The notes under the pieces are model-generated. The model did no database searches, was not told the DNA's origin, and saw nothing but the letters and a program-made list of their open reading frames with translations. A stretch of 64,000 nucleotides of DNA from Bacillota bacterium (lineage in GTDB: Bacteria; Bacillota; Sulfobacillia; Sulfobacillales; Sulfobacillaceae). The position numbers and the translations under genes are program-made. The stretch lies in NCBI GenBank assembly GCA_021784595.1, contig JAJYHT010000088.1, forward strand, positions 1 to 64,000, given 5' to 3'. Of the stretch, positions 21,750-28,578 are shown one piece after another; the first letter of the stretch is position 1; the number at the start of each line of letters is the position of its first letter.

Positions 21750-23417
21750 ATGACGGGAGCAGAACTAGCATGGAAAACATTGCGGCAATTGGGGGTCTCA
21801 GTAGTTTTTGGCGTGCCCGGTGGAGCCATTTTGCCTCTGGTAGATGCCATGGTGGCCCATCAAGATGCTGTGGACTTCATAGTAACCCGTCATGAATCGG
21901 CTGCTATACATGCAGCTGACGGCTACGCTCGGGTGACTGGGCGCCCTGCATTGGCGCTTGCGACGTCGGGGCCGGGAGGCACTAACGTCATTACGGGGTT
22001 GGCTACTGCTATGACCGATTCCGTTCCGCTGGTGCTGATAGTAGGACAAGTGCCGACCACGCTGATTGGCACTGATGCTTTTCAAGAAGCGGATTTGTTC
22101 GAGATGACAATGCCGGTGGTCAAACACAGTTGGAGAATCACCAGAGCCCAAGATGTGGACCGCATCTTCCGCCAAGCCTATAAAATGGCGGGTGAAGGGC
22201 GGCCAGGTCCAGTCGTGGTCGAATTTCCCAAAAACATTCAATTTGAAGAAGCAGAAAATGTTCCGGCACTCGATGCGCCTACGGAACAAACGGCTTCCTC
22301 GTGGCATCCCGAGCCACTGGCTTGGGCTAAAGCTCAGGCATATTTGAAAAGGGCCCAACGCCCAGTGCTTTATGTCGGAGGCGGGGTGTCGAGCAGTGGG
22401 ACCTCAGAGTGGATTTTGCGCTTAGCCGAGCGTTACGACTGCCCTGTGACCACAACGCTTTTGGGACTGGGGGCGTTTCCCGCCAATCATATCTTGTCTT
22501 TGGGCATGTTAGGGATGCACGGAACCTGGTATGCCAACACGGCAATGCAAGAGGCGGATTTAATTGTGGCGTGCGGTGTGCGGTTTGATGACCGGGTTAC
22601 CGGCAAGTTGGATGAATTTGCTCCCAAAGCCCGCATCATCCATATGGAAGTGGACCCCGCGGAAGTCAACAAACTGGTTCATCCCGACGTGGTGTTACAA
22701 GGGAACTTAACGGATATCTTGCCGCGATTCATGGAAATTGTTCCGATTACTAAGCATCCTCTATGGCGAGCCACTGTTGCTGAATGGATTCGCGAGCATC
22801 CTCTCAAAGTGCCCAAGGCTCCAGTCGGCACGGTGGCCTCAGCCCAAGCGTTGCAAATCATTGCCGAAAGTCTGGACGACGAGGATGTGGTGGTGACAGA
22901 GGTCGGACAGCATCAAATGTGGACCGCCCTTTTCCTACCCCGCAATTTGCCCCGACGGTTTTTGACATCAGGCGGAGCGGGAACGATGGGATACGGATTT
23001 CCCTCCTCCTTGGGGGCGAAGGTTGCGACTCCGGACCATCGGGTGATTTTGATTGCGGGCGATGGCAGCTTTCAAATGAATCTGCAAGAGATGGCGACCT
23101 TGGCGCAGTACCAAATTGGGGTCCGAATCATTGTGTTCAACAATGCGGGCCATGGCATGGTCCGGCAATGGCAGGACTTGTTTCATGGGCAGAGACGGTA
23201 TGGAGTGCGGCTGTTTAATCCCGACTTTGTCAAACTAGCGGAGTCTTTTGGCATTAAAGGATTTTCGGTGAATACGGTTGAAGGATTGAAAGAGGCCCTC
23301 ACAGTGGCCGACCAGGTCAAAGGGCCGGTCTTGCTTGAAGTCACAGTCCCGGAAGACGAACACGTATATCCCATGGTGCCTGCCGGGCGCTCGCTGTCTG
23401 CTGTATTGGAAGGGTAA
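21750..23417 (+). CDS. ilvB: Acetolactate synthase large (catalytic) subunit
   Basis: ThDP- and FAD-dependent catalytic subunit of 555 aa, which makes acetolactate or acetohydroxybutyrate. Motifs include VFGVPGGAILPL, the catalytic glutamate in VTRHESAAIHAADGYAR, the FAD domain in the middle, and the ThDP-Mg block IAGDGSFQMNLQEMATL followed by FNNAGHGMVRQWQ. The ATG follows GGGAGG. It depends on the small subunit encoded by the first gene of the operon. Confidence 0.95.
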   Translation: MTGAELAWKTLRQLGVSVVFGVPGGAILPLVDAMVAHQDAVDFIVTRHESAAIHAADGYARVTGRPALALATSGPGGTNVITGLATAMTDSVPLVLIVGQVPTTLIGTDAFQEADLFEMTMPVVKHSWRITRAQDVDRIFRQAYKMAGEGRPGPVVVEFPKNIQFEEAENVPALDAPTEQTASSWHPEPLAWAKAQAYLKRAQRPVLYVGGGVSSSGTSEWILRLAERYDCPVTTTLLGLGAFPANHILSLGMLGMHGTWYANTAMQEADLIVACGVRFDDRVTGKLDEFAPKARIIHMEVDPAEVNKLVHPDVVLQGNLTDILPRFMEIVPITKHPLWRATVAEWIREHPLKVPKAPVGTVASAQALQIIAESLDDEDVVVTEVGQHQMWTALFLPRNLPRRFLTSGGAGTMGYGFPSSLGAKVATPDHRVILIAGDGSFQMNLQEMATLAQYQIGVRIIVFNNAGHGMVRQWQDLFHGQRRYGVRLFNPDFVKLAESFGIKGFSVNTVEGLKEALTVADQVKGPVLLEVTVPEDEHVYPMVPAGRSLSAVLEG

Positions 23418-23452
23418 CAGGATTGAAGAGACAACAAGGGAGAGAGATAATA

Positions 23453-24361
23453 ATGACGGAGTCCTCGGAAAGAAAAATTTTTATGGACGGACAGTTGGTT
23501 CCGGCGAGTGAAGCTAAAGTATCCGTGTTCGATCACGGTTTCTTGTATGGTGATGGAATTTTCGAGGGAATCCGCGCTTATCGAGGCCGTGTATTTAAGT
23601 TGAAAGAGCATCTCGATCGACTCTATGATTCGGCGAAGGCAATTTTACTAGACATACCCTATACCAAGCAAGAAATGACCGAGGCCGTGGTGAACACGGT
23701 ACGCGTCAATGGATTGCAAGATGCCTACATCCGGCTGGTGGTTTCGCGAGGACCGGGAGATCTTGGCTTGGATCCGACAAAGTGCCCGCATCCCACCGTG
23801 ATTATTATTGCGGATACAATCAGCCTTTACCCCGAAGAGGTTTATCAAAAAGGCATGACGTTGGCTTCGGTGTCGATTCGCCGTCCGGCCACGGATGTTT
23901 TGAATCCCGCCATCAAGTCGTTGAATTACCTGAACAACATCTTGGCAAAAATCGAGGCAAATCTGCGCGGATTGCCAGAAGTGCTGATATTGAATCAAGA
24001 GGGTTACGTGGTGGAGGGGACTGGCGACAATGTATTCATTGTCAAGGATGGGGCTCTTTATACTCCCCCTACCTATGCCGGAATTCTCAATGGGATCACT
24101 CGGCAGGTGGTGTTGCGCTTAGCCAACGACCTAAATGTTTCAACTCATGAAGCTCCGCTTACAATGCATGATGTGTATACGGCGGACGAGTGCTTCCTCA
24201 CCGGAACAGCGGCCGAAGTGATTGGGGTCGTGCGCTGTGATGGCCGAACTATCGGTGCCGGCGACGTGGGGCCGTACACCGCGCGTTTACGCGATGCATT
24301 TTATACCTACGCCACCAACGAAGGAACGCCGGTTTACAACGAGGCGGTTATCGGGGCATGA
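23453..24361 (+). CDS. ilvE: Branched-chain amino acid aminotransferase
   Basis: PLP-dependent fold-type IV aminotransferase of 302 aa, last step of Val, Leu and Ile synthesis. The region FDHGFLYGDGIFEGIRAY is typical of the BCAT/DAAT class; the PLP lysine is in IKSLNYLNNILAK and the phosphate-binding segment in EGTGDNVFIV and GITRQVV. The ATG at 23453 follows a GGGAGAGA site. Its stop codon overlaps the pheA ATG. D-amino acid transaminase is the main alternative by sequence, but the operon favours IlvE. Confidence 0.92.
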   Translation: MTESSERKIFMDGQLVPASEAKVSVFDHGFLYGDGIFEGIRAYRGRVFKLKEHLDRLYDSAKAILLDIPYTKQEMTEAVVNTVRVNGLQDAYIRLVVSRGPGDLGLDPTKCPHPTVIIIADTISLYPEEVYQKGMTLASVSIRRPATDVLNPAIKSLNYLNNILAKIEANLRGLPEVLILNQEGYVVEGTGDNVFIVKDGALYTPPTYAGILNGITRQVVLRLANDLNVSTHEAPLTMHDVYTADECFLTGTAAEVIGVVRCDGRTIGAGDVGPYTARLRDAFYTYATNEGTPVYNEAVIGA

Positions 24362-25197
24362 GCCGATTAAACACTATTTTATATCAGGGAGAACCTGGCT
24401 CGTTTAGCGAGGCTGCAATTTTGAGCCACTGGCCACAGGCTCGTGCGGTGGGCCTGCCGTCATTTGGCGAGGTGGTTGATGCCTTGCAGGAAGATTCTGG
24501 CGCGGTGGGTCTTCTCCCCATTGAGAATGCCTACCGGGGTCCCGTCTACGAGGTGCTGGACTTGCTGACCTCAGGTCAGCATCTCTTGGATATACGGGCA
24601 GAAGTGGTACAGCCGGTGGAGTTGGCTCTTTTGGCTCAAAAGGGTACGGAACTGACAGATGTCCGCCTGGTACGCTCCCATCCGCAGGCTCTGATGCAAA
24701 GCCGGGGATTTTGGCAAGCTCGGGGCTGGCAAGGGGAGCCTGCTCTGGATACCGCGGGCAGTGCGCGTGAATTGGCGGAGTCCAACCGGCCGGGAGTAGC
24801 TGCAATCGCCAGTCGTCGGGCAGGGTCCTTGTATGGACTGGAAGTACTGGCCGAGGGCATACATGACCATCCGGACAATCGAACCCGGTTTTGGCTCGTC
24901 TCGCAAATGCCGGTAGGATTTAGCGCTTCCCCATTAGGACTCTACAAAACTAGTGTGGTGTTCGACGTGCCTAATGTTCCCGGTAGCTTGGTGCGGGTGC
25001 TCACGCATTTTAGTCAGTGGGGGTTAAATCTCAACAAAGTGGAATCGCGTCCCAGACCTGGAGTACCTTTTGCCTTTCGGTTTTGGATCGATGTGGCTGG
25101 CCGGCCTGAGCAGTTGGAGTCGGTGGTGGGCCAAGCGGTTGCTGAAATGGAATGGCATCGGGTGTTGGGAGCAGGGTATCCGGTGTACGACCAGTAA
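24358..25197 (+). CDS. pheA: Prephenate dehydratase
   Basis: A 279-aa monofunctional enzyme that converts prephenate to phenylpyruvate. The catalytic domain (about residues 6 to 183) contains QGEPGSFSEAA, LLPIENAYRGPVYEV and the TRF motif in NRTRFWLV. A C-terminal ACT domain (VPGSLVRVLTHFSQWGLNL, ESRP) should bind phenylalanine for feedback inhibition. Its ATG overlaps the ilvE stop, so phenylalanine synthesis is tied to the branched-chain operon and its T-box. No chorismate mutase domain is present. Confidence 0.94.
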   Translation: MSRLNTILYQGEPGSFSEAAILSHWPQARAVGLPSFGEVVDALQEDSGAVGLLPIENAYRGPVYEVLDLLTSGQHLLDIRAEVVQPVELALLAQKGTELTDVRLVRSHPQALMQSRGFWQARGWQGEPALDTAGSARELAESNRPGVAAIASRRAGSLYGLEVLAEGIHDHPDNRTRFWLVSQMPVGFSASPLGLYKTSVVFDVPNVPGSLVRVLTHFSQWGLNLNKVESRPRPGVPFAFRFWIDVAGRPEQLESVVGQAVAEMEWHRVLGAGYPVYDQ

Positions 25198-25230: not shown

Positions 25231-25263
25231 ATGGCCTTAACAACTAAACATGATGGTCGTTTG

Positions 25264-25341
25264 CTAGGGGAGCCCAAACGTGGCTGAGAGGTGCACACCA
25301 ACCCTTGGAACCTGCTCTGGGTAATGCCAGCGGAGGGAAGC
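25264..25341 (+). promoter_or_regulatory. TPP (THI-box) riboswitch
   Basis: The conserved core of a thiamine pyrophosphate riboswitch is clear: GGGGAGCCC, GGCTGAGAGG near 25282, CCTTGGAACCTG near 25303 and GGGTAATGCCAGCGGAGGGA from 25319. It precedes thiamine genes and an intrinsic terminator, so TPP binding should stop transcription. Confidence 0.95.
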
Positions 25342-25350
25342 AAGTCTTCT

Positions 25351-25391
25351 AATGCAGACACTTGCCCGCTAGGCGATCTGTCTGCATTTTT
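25351..25391 (+). terminator. Riboswitch-controlled terminator
   Basis: AATGCAGACA (25351) pairs with TGTCTGCATT (25379) and runs into five T residues. An alternative pairing of GCAAG (25340) with CTTGC (25361) would disrupt this stem when the riboswitch is unbound, giving an antiterminator. Confidence 0.85.
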
Positions 25392-25437
25392 GTTGCAGCA
25401 ATTCGATCATCAATCTATGGGACAAAGGGGCGAGTCA

Positions 25438-26499
25438 ATGAACAGTGAATTGCCTGCAATTGGCAAAATTTCTCCCGAAGTGTTTCGGGATTATGTTTAC
25501 CCCCATCTGGGTGCAGTTAATGACAACGTGCTGGTGGGACCTCAGTCTGGGGTTGATATTGCGATTACTCGGATTGCTCCCGGCATTGTCATGGCCACCA
25601 CCACTGACCCGGTTTTTGTGGTTCCCCAATATGGGTGGGAGCGCGCAGCCTGGTTTGCGGTTCACATTTTGGCATCGGATGCTGCGACCTCCGGGATTCA
25701 GCCATCGTTAATGACGGTGGATTTCAATCTGCCATTATCGATAACAACCCAGGAGTTTCATTCGCTGTGGCAGGGCTTTGCCAAGACGTGCGCCGATATT
25801 GGGATTAGCGTAATTTCTGGTCACACCGCCCGATACGAAGGGTGCAATTATCCCATGATTGGGGGAGCCACGGTGATGAGCATCGGAGCTGAAGAGCAAT
25901 ATGTTACGACGGCGATGGCAAAACAGGGCGACGTGGTGCTTTGCACTAAGGGCGCAGCCATCGAGGCGACCGGTCTCTTCGCAGCAACCTTTCCGGACTA
26001 CATTCGGCGCAGTTTGGGAGAGGACGTATATCTTGCGGCGGACGCGTTGTTTGAGAAGATGTCGGTCGTAGAAGATGCCATGGCGGCTGCTTCTGTGGGA
26101 GTTCGTGAAAAAGGAGTCACCGCCATGCACGATGCTACGGAATGTGGGGTGGTGGGTGGCGTATATGAACTTGCTGAAGCGTCGCACCTTGGGGTGACAC
26201 TATACGATGACCAGGTTCTGGTGCGGCCCGAAGTGGCTGCGGTAGCGAAGCTGGTGGACATCGATCCACTGATTGCAATTAGTGAAGGTTCTTTATTGCT
26301 GACGGTGCGCCCGACATATGTTGATGCCGTAACCAAAGCCTTAGCTGCACGGGGCATTTCGGTGGCCGCCATTGGGGAAATGACCGATCCCTCGGCTGGG
26401 ATGTGGCGTGTTCATAATAATGGACAAAAACCCTTAATCCATCCGCGGGTAGATCCGTTTTGGGAAGCTTTTGGGCGAACGGCAGAACGGGAGGGATAG
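25438..26499 (+). CDS. PurM/HypE-superfamily protein in thiamine operon
   Basis: A 353-aa member of the AIR-synthase (PurM, HypE, ThiL, SelD) ATP-binding superfamily. The N-terminal half has ATTTDPVFVVPQYGWERAAWFAV, LASDAATSGIQPSLM and DIGISVISGHTARYEG; the C-terminal half has VTAMHDATECGVVGGVYELAE. These layouts resemble HypE more than canonical ThiL. It is the first gene after the TPP riboswitch, four bases before thiD, and no hydrogenase genes are near. Thiamine-phosphate kinase is an attractive guess because the operon otherwise lacks ThiL, but that is inference. ATG at 25438 follows AAAGGGGCG. Confidence 0.7.
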   Translation: MNSELPAIGKISPEVFRDYVYPHLGAVNDNVLVGPQSGVDIAITRIAPGIVMATTTDPVFVVPQYGWERAAWFAVHILASDAATSGIQPSLMTVDFNLPLSITTQEFHSLWQGFAKTCADIGISVISGHTARYEGCNYPMIGGATVMSIGAEEQYVTTAMAKQGDVVLCTKGAAIEATGLFAATFPDYIRRSLGEDVYLAADALFEKMSVVEDAMAAASVGVREKGVTAMHDATECGVVGGVYELAEASHLGVTLYDDQVLVRPEVAAVAKLVDIDPLIAISEGSLLLTVRPTYVDAVTKALAARGISVAAIGEMTDPSAGMWRVHNNGQKPLIHPRVDPFWEAFGRTAEREG

Positions 26500-26502
26500 C
26501 AC

Positions 26503-27300
26503 ATGAAACGCGTGTTGACCATCGCGGGATCTGATTCCGGAGGTGGCGCGGGAATTCAAGCCGACTTGAAAACATTTATGGCATTTTCGGTATATGGCAT
26601 GTCGGCGGTGACTGCCGTGACCGCGCAAAACACTCGGGGCGTAGCGGCTATCGCAGCGATGACACCTGAAATGGTGGCGGAGCAGATTCGTGAAATCGTG
26701 TCTGATATTGGTGTGGATGCGGTGAAAATTGGAATGCTCTTTTCCGCTGAGATTATTAGCGCAGTGGCGTTCGAACTGAAAAAACTGGATCACGAGATTC
26801 CTATTGTTGTTGACCCCGTGATGCGCGCTAAAGGTGGCGGTGCGCTCTTGCAGCGCGACGCCGAGCAGGCGTTTCGAGCTCTGATAATTCCCCACGCCAC
26901 CATTCTTACCCCAAACCTTCCCGAGGCTTCCGCGTTGGCCGAAATTGTGGTCAATGATCGCGACGCCATGGTAAAGGCGGCTGCTGTGTTGACGGATATG
27001 GGCGCGTCGGCAGTGCTTGTCAAAGGGGGACACTTAAAAGAGGACGTCGCGGCAGACCTCTTGTGGTTTGAAGGAGAAGGGCAGTGGTTTGAATCATCCC
27101 GCATAGACACGCGCCATACCCATGGCACAGGGTGTACGCTATCTAGTGCCATCGCAGCTAGCCTGGCACGCGGACTGCCTATGGACCAGGCGGTGGGATT
27201 GGCTAAACGGTATGTCACCGAAGCCATTCGTCTCGCGCCGGGCTTGGGTAGCGGCAATGGACCACTCAATCACCATTGGGGGCAAAGCGCATGGATTTAG
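26503..27300 (+). CDS. thiD: HMP / HMP-phosphate kinase
   Basis: A 265-aa ribokinase-family enzyme that phosphorylates hydroxymethylpyrimidine and its monophosphate to HMP-PP for thiamine synthesis. It starts TIAGSDSGGGAGIQADLKT, has the conserved VDPVMRAKGGGALL and PNLPEASAL, and ends with the anion-hole motif THGTGCTLSSAIAA containing the catalytic Asp-equivalent region. The ATG follows GGGAGGG. It overlaps thiE by ten bases. Confidence 0.94.
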   Translation: MKRVLTIAGSDSGGGAGIQADLKTFMAFSVYGMSAVTAVTAQNTRGVAAIAAMTPEMVAEQIREIVSDIGVDAVKIGMLFSAEIISAVAFELKKLDHEIPIVVDPVMRAKGGGALLQRDAEQAFRALIIPHATILTPNLPEASALAEIVVNDRDAMVKAAAVLTDMGASAVLVKGGHLKEDVAADLLWFEGEGQWFESSRIDTRHTHGTGCTLSSAIAASLARGLPMDQAVGLAKRYVTEAIRLAPGLGSGNGPLNHHWGQSAWI

Positions 27301-27923
27301 CATTGCACATTCTGCTGTCGCCGGACGATCTATCCTTGGATGAAGTCCCGTCTTTTTGTGCCGCCATCCGGCGCGGGGGGGCCACTGTGGTGCAATTGCG
27401 GGCAAAAGTGGTCCCCGTGCGGACCATGATAGCATACGGTCGGGCCCTGCGTGATGCTACCCGGGAACAAGGGTTGGGCTTTGTCGTAAACGATCGGCTG
27501 GATGTCGCGATGGCTGTTCATGCGGATGGGGTTCACGTGGGGCAGGACGACATCCCAGTGCCTTTGGTGCGTGCTATCGCCCCTTATTTGTTGGTGGGAT
27601 TGTCGGTGAGCAGCCAGGCTGAAGCCCAGGAGGCGCTTCGCTTGCGTCCAGACTATCTAGGGGTGGGGCCGGTCTTTCATACGTGGTCTAAAGAGGATGC
27701 CGGCATTCCGTTAGGGGAGAAGGGGCTGGCAGAAATCTCGACTGTGGTGCAGGACAGTTTGCCTATGGTAGCGATTGGCGGCATTACATCACAAAATGCG
27801 GGAACTGTATGGCACTATCCGGTTTCTGGTTTGGCGGTCATTTCAGCAGTAATGGGGGCAATCGACAAAGAGGACGCCTGCCGGAAACTTTGCGATGCAC
27901 GAAAGGAGTCTCATCATGGATAG
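27291..27923 (+). CDS. thiE: Thiamine-phosphate synthase
   Basis: A 210-aa TIM-barrel enzyme that joins HMP-PP and thiazole phosphate to thiamine monophosphate. Family segments are VVQLRAK (diphosphate binding), FVVNDRLDVAMAVHADGVHVGQDD, LSVSSQAEAQEA, DYLGVGPVFHTWSK and VAIGGIT. ATG at 27291 overlaps the end of thiD, giving coupled translation. The thiazole branch (thiG, thiS, thiM) is not in the window. Confidence 0.93.
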   Translation: MDLALHILLSPDDLSLDEVPSFCAAIRRGGATVVQLRAKVVPVRTMIAYGRALRDATREQGLGFVVNDRLDVAMAVHADGVHVGQDDIPVPLVRAIAPYLLVGLSVSSQAEAQEALRLRPDYLGVGPVFHTWSKEDAGIPLGEKGLAEISTVVQDSLPMVAIGGITSQNAGTVWHYPVSGLAVISAVMGAIDKEDACRKLCDARKESHHG

Positions 27924-28578
27924 GTCATTTTCACACACACTTAAAGAGAATAATCAGGACGTCTGGGAATCCATTATGACACACCCATTTGTGGTTGACA
28001 TGGGGCGGGGTACATTGAGTGACGAGCGGCTGAGCCGATTCATTGCCCAAGATTACCAGTATCTTAAGGATTTTTTTCGAGTGCTGGCGGTGGCTGCCGC
28101 AAAGGCGCCTACCAATGAATGGCGGGCTATCTTCACGGCGCACGCACAAAACGTGGTTGCAGTCGAACGCCAATTGCACCTTAAAATAGCTCCGTTATTG
28201 GATGTGTCGGTCGACGAGCTTCAGACCATAGAACCCTTGCCGATCACCATTGCATATACCGATCATTTGCTTCGCATCGCATGGACCGAATCCTTTGAAG
28301 CCATTGTGGCGGCGGTCTTGCCATGTTATTGGACGTACCGCGAGATTGGAATCAGGCTGGGGGACCTGGGATTGCCCGATCATCCATTGTTGCGTGATTG
28401 GATCGAAACCTATCGGGGACCGCTTTATGGCCAATCGGTTGAGGAGGTGCTTGGAATTGCGGATGCGTTGACATTGAATCCGGTCTGCCATATGGCGTTT
28501 GAACGGTCCTTGCGCTATGAGCGTCTATTTTGGAGCCAAGGATATGGACTGAACGAGTCTGGCTTTTTAATGGACTAA
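27916..28578 (+). CDS. tenA: TenA-family thiaminase II
   Basis: A 220-aa heme-oxygenase-fold protein of the TenA family, which hydrolyses degraded aminopyrimidines (such as aminomethyl-HMP) to salvage HMP for thiamine. The conserved segment AVLPCYWTYREIG carries the active-site cysteine; IAQDYQYLKDFFRVLA and the C-terminal FERSLRYERLFWSQGY match the family. The ATG at 27916 follows AAAGGAG by eight bases and overlaps thiE by eight bases. With thiD and thiE it forms a salvage-oriented operon. Confidence 0.9.
   Translation: MDRSFSHTLKENNQDVWESIMTHPFVVDMGRGTLSDERLSRFIAQDYQYLKDFFRVLAVAAAKAPTNEWRAIFTAHAQNVVAVERQLHLKIAPLLDVSVDELQTIEPLPITIAYTDHLLRIAWTESFEAIVAAVLPCYWTYREIGIRLGDLGLPDHPLLRDWIETYRGPLYGQSVEEVLGIADALTLNPVCHMAFERSLRYERLFWSQGYGLNESGFLMD

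Follow-up and report, generated by a model that had tools for sequence, protein, structure and literature searches.

Although the biosynthetic route to thiamine is regarded as closed, a gene controlled by TPP recurs in many phyla whose product attains only weak scores against the profiles of HypE and ThiL; which step does it carry out? The question is raised here by the first gene of an operon lying in a stretch of Bacillota DNA of 64,000 nucleotides (the window), for which an earlier note had suggested, from an operon without ThiL or a thiamine kinase, that the HypE-like product might be a thiamine-phosphate (TMP) kinase or act on another step. The protein, P0001, and its relatives, to which we give the working name thi-AIRS, form a distinct, widespread and apparently uncharacterised clade of the PurM superfamily, on the side of HypE. 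The wider TPP-controlled pattern is real and, in the openly licensed literature searched, undescribed; no description of the clade was found in openly licensed papers, and an earlier mention may exist elsewhere.

Organization of the Locus

The arrangement reported in the earlier note, namely a TPP riboswitch ahead of a PurM-superfamily gene followed by the genes for ThiD, ThiE, and TenA, is borne out (Table 1): the call of the aptamer is secure, the same RF00059 element being recovered by a whole-genome scan which found three TPP riboswitches in the genome, and the three enzymes pass the curated cut-offs. The start proposed for the first gene, 25264, has to be abandoned, since it lies inside the aptamer, as does the GTG at 25291 which opens the longest reading frame. 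In the leader, the arms of the terminator-like hairpin (25351–25360 and 25379–25388) are accompanied by T's at 25387–25391; taken over its full length, the 145-nt leader folds with no exceptional stability (z −0.69), a simple terminator scan did not list this hairpin among its terminators, and a promoter and terminator scan across the operon returned counts at chance level. Reading of the sequence favours the ATG over a TTG at 27276 as the start of ThiE, and places the start of TenA at an ATG preceded by AAAGGAG. Immediately 5′ of the riboswitch (21750–25197) the window encodes acetolactate synthase-like, branched-chain aminotransferase, and prephenate dehydratase genes, whose order is retained in several close relatives.

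Table 1: Features of the leader and of the operon (window coordinates).
Feature	Position	Strand	Evidence or remark
TPP riboswitch aptamer (RF00059)	25256–25355	+	cmscan 67.7 bits, gathering threshold 54.3, E 7.9e-12
Likely expression platform: terminator-like hairpin with T run	25351–25391	+	sequence and fold; putative function
Shine-Dalgarno-like AAAGGGG	25424–25430	+	sequence; 7 bases 5′ of the ATG at 25438
thi-AIRS, PurM-superfamily protein P0001, 353 aa	25438–26499	+	ATG start; HypE-like fold (predicted), own clade
ThiD, HMP/HMP-P kinase	26503–27300	+	TIGR00097, 335.2 bits, cut-off 204.95
ThiE, thiamine-phosphate synthase	27291–27923	+	TIGR00693, 169.8 bits, cut-off 145.1; ATG start
TenA, thiaminase II/aminopyrimidine salvage	27916–28578	+	TIGR04306, 133.6 bits, cut-off 130; ATG start

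As the earlier note had stated, no gene for ThiL or for a thiamine kinase is found within the operon. The search of the genome (3.79 Mb, 97.5% complete) revealed, on another contig (C88:24954–25922), a canonical thiL scoring 313.3 bits with the TIGR01379 profile (cut-off 184.15) and flanked by reading frames which we take to be tsaE- and tsaB-like; the last thiamine step is therefore not missing, the idea of an organism without ThiL is rejected, and with it falls the operon gap as a ground for assigning a TMP kinase. The second TPP riboswitch precedes ThiC, a TenI-like protein, ThiG, ThiF, and a ThiO-like protein, and the third an ECF-type transporter; ThiG, the TenI-like protein, and the small subunit of the transporter have Pfam or profile support, while several of the other names come from reading of the proteins. 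By profile and protein reading the genome also encodes SelD, PurM, and PurL, SelD being a separate gene with the motif GGHS.

Sequence and Predicted Structure of P0001

Both AIRS (PF00586, 46.8 bits, cut-off 24) and AIRS_C (PF02769, 68.5 bits, cut-off 23.1) are present in P0001, whose best NCBIfam scores, thiL 70.5, hypE 64.3, and selD 57.0/54.3 bits, all stay far under the cut-offs of the respective families (184.15 for TIGR01379, 251.6 for TIGR02124, and 125 for TIGR00476, with which the score is 54.3). The label “HypE-like” was well chosen, HypE being both the best sequence match in the PDB and the best fold match of the AlphaFold2 model (pLDDT 94, pTM 0.91), with a Z score of 33.9 (2.9 Å over 324 residues, 21% identity) compared to 28.7 for ThiL and 28.5 for SelD. 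The model computed confidently predicts a PurM-type fold; as this predicted fold is common to other members of the superfamily, the match to HypE is not decisive.

Seven residues, K10, D40, D57, D81, H231, D232, and E283, are invariant in all 99 clade rows. The GGDT motif of ThiL, whose Asp is important and which is carried by the window genome's own ThiL, becomes GGHT in the clade, H129 being found in 98 of the 99 rows. HypE ends with a Cys (PR-I/V-C) bearing the cyanide, and a PRIC terminus was found in all nine readable HypE controls (L323 was not readable); P0001 terminates with AFGRTAEREG, without the Pro-Arg-Ile-Cys end. Plain HypE was accordingly discarded on the TIGR02124 score, the absent Cys, and the separate clade; judged by profile, tree, and missing C-terminal Cys, P0001 is neither a ThiL nor a HypE nor a SelD. 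A divergent second copy, about 42% identical and without the GGHT stretch, occurs outside thiamine operons in one genome (L043:6669–7775, G020).

A Distinct Clade of the PurM Superfamily

Matches to P0001 are present in 20 of 41 genomes, 13 of them full-length at 65–100% identity (both counts include the window genome). In the twelve full-length close orthologues a TPP riboswitch at the gathering threshold was detected for eight, and in ten a ThiD-labelled gene follows when the loci are read, the two exceptions being a contig that ends (L040) and a gene call out of frame (L042). A profile search extended to 299 genomes of the phylum gave a match in 101; in the tree of these matches 27 rows, including the window protein, form a single clade (SH-aLRT 100), the rest constituting what we call the “solo” family. 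When HypE, ThiL, SelD, and PurM are added, 28 clade rows group together (99), as do 15 ThiL rows (95) and HypE (100), and the clade is placed weakly on the HypE side (SH-aLRT 81); these are quick maximum-likelihood trees with some long branches. The computed phylogeny gives the clade an ancestry separate from those of ThiL, HypE, and SelD; the phylogeny proposed in the earlier note places the protein with those on the HypE side and apart from ThiL.

Association with TPP Riboswitches and Thiamine Genes

Twelve TPP riboswitches served to construct a covariance model, which, applied to the loci of the phylum sample (three AIRS matches, G200, G196 C82, and G174, lie outside this set), detected a riboswitch in 13 of 24 clade loci versus none of 76 solo-family loci (Fisher p 3.5e-10, relatedness being ignored). 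At least 586 relatives came from a scan of named genomes; among the best 80 of these loci, 33 carry a TPP riboswitch, in 29 cases within 600 nt upstream of the gene, and those bearing it span Bacillota, Zixibacteria, WOR-3, Myxococcota, Acidobacteriota, Calditrichota, and others, the same 80 loci coming also from Sulfobacillus, Chloroflexota, and Planctomycetota. One set compiled from these named loci comprised 43 of the 80. The riboswitch often precedes a single gene; elsewhere the operons read ThiC-AIRS-ThiD-ThiE (L250), AIRS-ThiE-ThiL (L251, L255), AIRS-TenA-ThiE (L266, L282), and AIRS-TenA-ThiE with a ThiL fragment (L289), labels in fetched loci such as ThiM, ThiE, and ThiL being phmmer matches to single seed sequences. 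In a scan covering 96 of 162 neighbouring operon proteins, from which the close window relatives L236, L237, L241, and L242 were excluded, the TMP synthase type was found 11 times, the ThiD type 7, TenA 5, ThiN 2, and ThiC once. Each of the 18 genomes with the clade in the 299-genome sample has ThiE or ThiN, presence and absence being called here and below by profile thresholds on mostly draft genomes. The clade is associated, by computation, with TPP riboswitches and with thiamine operons and fusions.

Two other arrangements were met in these loci. In G040 (L048:5931–8210) an FMN riboswitch is followed, about 0.7 kb on, by an AIRS gene of the solo family that comes after a riboflavin-type ECF S component, and in G218 an 800-aa frame with ThiD and ThiM matches lies behind a TPP riboswitch (L317:7811–10213); a thiE profile match falls in the latter frame, so that ThiM, ThiE, and ThiD may be one protein.

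Fusions with ThiN

A search of the window genome gave no ThiN. Of the 22 ThiN domains in the phylum sample, nine are fused to a clade protein and two more are adjacent to one; in G034 the AIRS-ThiN fusion lies within a TPP-ThiD-ThiE-ThiM-ThiC operon (ThiM and ThiC by protein reading). A His is described as essential in the ThiN of Thermotoga (PMC11551756); in a register taken from the 2pb9 alignment, the corresponding position in 10 fused domains is occupied by His in five, Tyr in four, and Asn in one. Its loss in half of them implies that ThiN is often retained as an inactive synthase, perhaps in order to hold TMP, and suggests that a fused ThiN lacking the His would bind TMP rather than make it. 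The residue is kept or lost from genome to genome, even in close relatives (L133, L134, L136, L137, L139, L140, L142, L144). One frame of G224 (L138:728–3127) joins AIRS and ThiN with a C-terminal region that, on reading the protein, looks like a nicotinamidase.

Coexistence with ThiL

A thiL over the cut-off is present in 36 of the 41 genomes (own included); across phyla, in the hosts scored for ThiL (50 of the 80 named loci), a match is found in 43 and is over the cut-off in 38; in the 299-genome sample, 12 of 18 clade genomes are ThiL-positive versus 94 of the 216 TMP makers as a whole. The clade does not avoid ThiL, and a ThiL-labelled gene shares a short operon with the clade gene at L251, L255, and L289. 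The broad AIRS family is mildly depleted in ThiL holders (among TMP makers: both 22, AIRS only 51, ThiL only 72, neither 71; Fisher p 0.006, relatedness ignored), and 28 genomes with a broad-family AIRS have neither ThiE nor ThiN; the proposal that AIRS replaces ThiL is weakened, because it is the solo family, devoid of thiamine context, that causes the depletion, and because most thiamine-clade genomes hold ThiL.

Seven hosts lack ThiL, five of them having a full TPK. Profile searches of the other two, G034 and G096, gave no ThiL over the cut-off and no full-length thiamine pyrophosphokinase; both are TMP makers with an AIRS-ThiN fusion, and in G096 ThiE- and ThiM-labelled genes stand side by side. 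In G034, which is 94% complete, so that a ThiL might have been missed, the TPK search yielded, inside a longer frame, only a partial match (2.5e-9); ThiL-holding hosts show matches of this type too. A HAD phosphatase belongs to the operon of some ThiL-less hosts (G102 and G315, and G196 by position and size only); together with TPK, this would allow TMP to be dephosphorylated and then re-pyrophosphorylated. A TMP-kinase role is thus possible, and attractive in G034 and G096, but is not the general reason for which the gene is retained.

The Sulfur-Operon Subclade

Nested within the clade, 26 rows lie alongside NifS-type desulfurases, NifU, NIL-domain proteins, Rrf2 regulators, HcyBio, FdhD, and CysE, and 25 of them have no TPP riboswitch; a scan covering 86 of 130 neighbour proteins counted Aminotran_5 (9), PALP (9), NifU (6), NIL (6), Rrf2 (5), HcyBio (3), and FdhD (3). 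This context hints at a chemistry beyond that of a simple TMP kinase. Sulfur or Fe-S operons without the riboswitch were read at L258, L268, L275, L284, L285, L296, L306, L307, and L315, where threonine synthase and cystathionine gamma-synthase-like proteins are further neighbours. A need of the gene for de novo thiazole synthesis was also considered; the idea is weakened, ThiG being present in only 15 of 71 clade hosts (a count for clade hosts alone) and absent in 56, several with thiazole-salvage genes; ThiM-labelled genes occur in G096, G157, and G218. No Thi4 was found among 20 neighbours scanned individually, nor in the top 25 neighbour families of either neighbour set.

Possible Functions

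That the riboswitch-controlled members have a role in thiamine metabolism is very probable, and the link of the first gene to thiamine is stronger than the earlier note had claimed, even if its reasoning from an operon without ThiL does not hold; TMP-kinase activity is a possible, candidate role, beside the alternative of another step. The explanation that we tentatively prefer, thinking it possible rather than probable, is a TPP-repressed auxiliary enzyme acting at the thiamine-phosphate stage, with a second TMP kinase as the leading reaction. When TPP is low, bacteria would make thi-AIRS, which would bind ATP-Mg and serve as an accessory enzyme at the point where thiamine phosphate is formed or consumed, alongside ThiL and not replacing it; the most likely single reaction, admittedly a guess, would be transfer of the gamma-phosphate of ATP to TMP or a closely related compound. 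The clade protein would then be a second TMP kinase, repressed by TPP and supplementing ThiL, and thi-AIRS fused to ThiN might carry out the TMP-to-TPP step alone in a few lineages. Riboswitches, neighbours, ThiN fusions, invariant residues, and the two hosts without ThiL or TPK speak for this explanation; against it are ThiL in the window genome and in 43 of 50 hosts, the GGHT motif, the five ThiL-less hosts with TPK, the sulfur-operon subclade, which a TMP kinase leaves unexplained, and the operons at L251, L255, and L289, which would hold two TMP kinases. The TMP-kinase reaction itself is proposed with some diffidence. It is a serious possibility, put not far below an even chance, that the clade is an unrecognised B1 enzyme family of many phyla, switched by TPP and catalysing a non-textbook ATP-dependent step, maybe the activation of a formamide or thio intermediate (in salvage, repair, or sulfur insertion) and not a kinase reaction; ATP-driven activation could be the shared chemistry, because the closest sisters serve NifS/NifU/NIL sulfur operons.

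PurM, PurL, and HypE activate amide oxygens, and thi-AIRS, with HypE as its closest fold, might similarly use ATP to activate a degradation product, amide- or formamide-like, of the pyrimidine or of opened thiamine, feeding ThiD, ThiE, and TenA. Coexistence with ThiL suits such a salvage or repair step, as do TenA and ThiD in clade operons (G315 adds a ThiX-like permease and an NMT1/ThiY-like binding protein) and the frequency of salvage in the hosts, seen in the absence of ThiG and in the ThiM-labelled genes; since many copies under riboswitch control are solitary, with no salvage genes around them, since the proposal offers a class of candidate substrates rather than a single one, and since G034 and G096 would be left without a TMP-to-TPP enzyme, we regard it as possible, though slightly less so than the preferred explanation. 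An ATP-dependent activation of sulfide or persulfide, as in SelD, would unite the thiamine with the sulfur and Fe-S operons, TPP-controlled copies supplying the thiazole sulfur, and would fit the nested subclade and the resemblance of GGHT and the acidic residues to SelD; it appears improbable, given that SelD has a conserved N-terminal Cys of a type absent from the clade, that thiazole sulfur is not a general role where ThiG is missing, unless Thi4 is used, and that the function may have shifted in the subclade, nearly devoid of the riboswitch. Loss of catalysis, leaving a regulator or binding protein of the TPP pathway, could account for the frequent lack of the synthase His in fused ThiN and recalls the ThiN domains that serve as ligand-binding domains in archaeal regulators; the invariant K10, D40, D57, D81, H231, D232, and E283 argue for catalysis, and we consider this quite unlikely. 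The weak thiL and hypE scores would finally suit an ordinary HypE or ThiL paralogue placed by chance and devoid of a dedicated thiamine role, which is hardly credible in view of the recurrent riboswitches, operons, and fusions, the monophyly, and the missing HypE Cys.

Naming the reaction of thi-AIRS would close a gap in B1 metabolism; it could explain the supply of TPP in hosts like G096, where ThiL is missing and no TPK was detected, and might reveal a chemistry common to thiamine and sulfur or Fe-S operons. The case also warns that TMP kinases are not assignable from operon gaps alone.

Comparison with Known Systems

HypE, like the clade, belongs to the PurM superfamily, is its best match by fold and PDB sequence, and is placed, with weak support, on its side of the tree, but it is accompanied by hydrogenase genes, whereas the clade has thiamine genes and a TPP riboswitch and is devoid of the PRIC end. 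ThiL shares with the clade the superfamily and the thiamine operons and gives P0001 its top NCBIfam score (70.5 bits) with a fold Z of 28.7; P0001, however, is far under the 184.15 cut-off, belongs to a separate clade in which GGDT is replaced by GGHT, and coexists with a true ThiL. The resemblance to SelD lies in the GGH(S/T) motif, the acidic residues, and the fold (Z 28.5), but P0001 scores 54 bits against the 125 required and the genome's SelD is another gene. ThiN (PF10120), a TMP synthase or ligand-binding domain, occurs in Clostridia-like genomes, where it is joined to clade members or lies next to them. The solo AIRS family of Bacillota, finally, is a PurM-superfamily relative about 24–33% identical, but lies outside the clade, has Ser in place of E283 in six of six sequences, and has a TPP riboswitch at none of its 76 loci.
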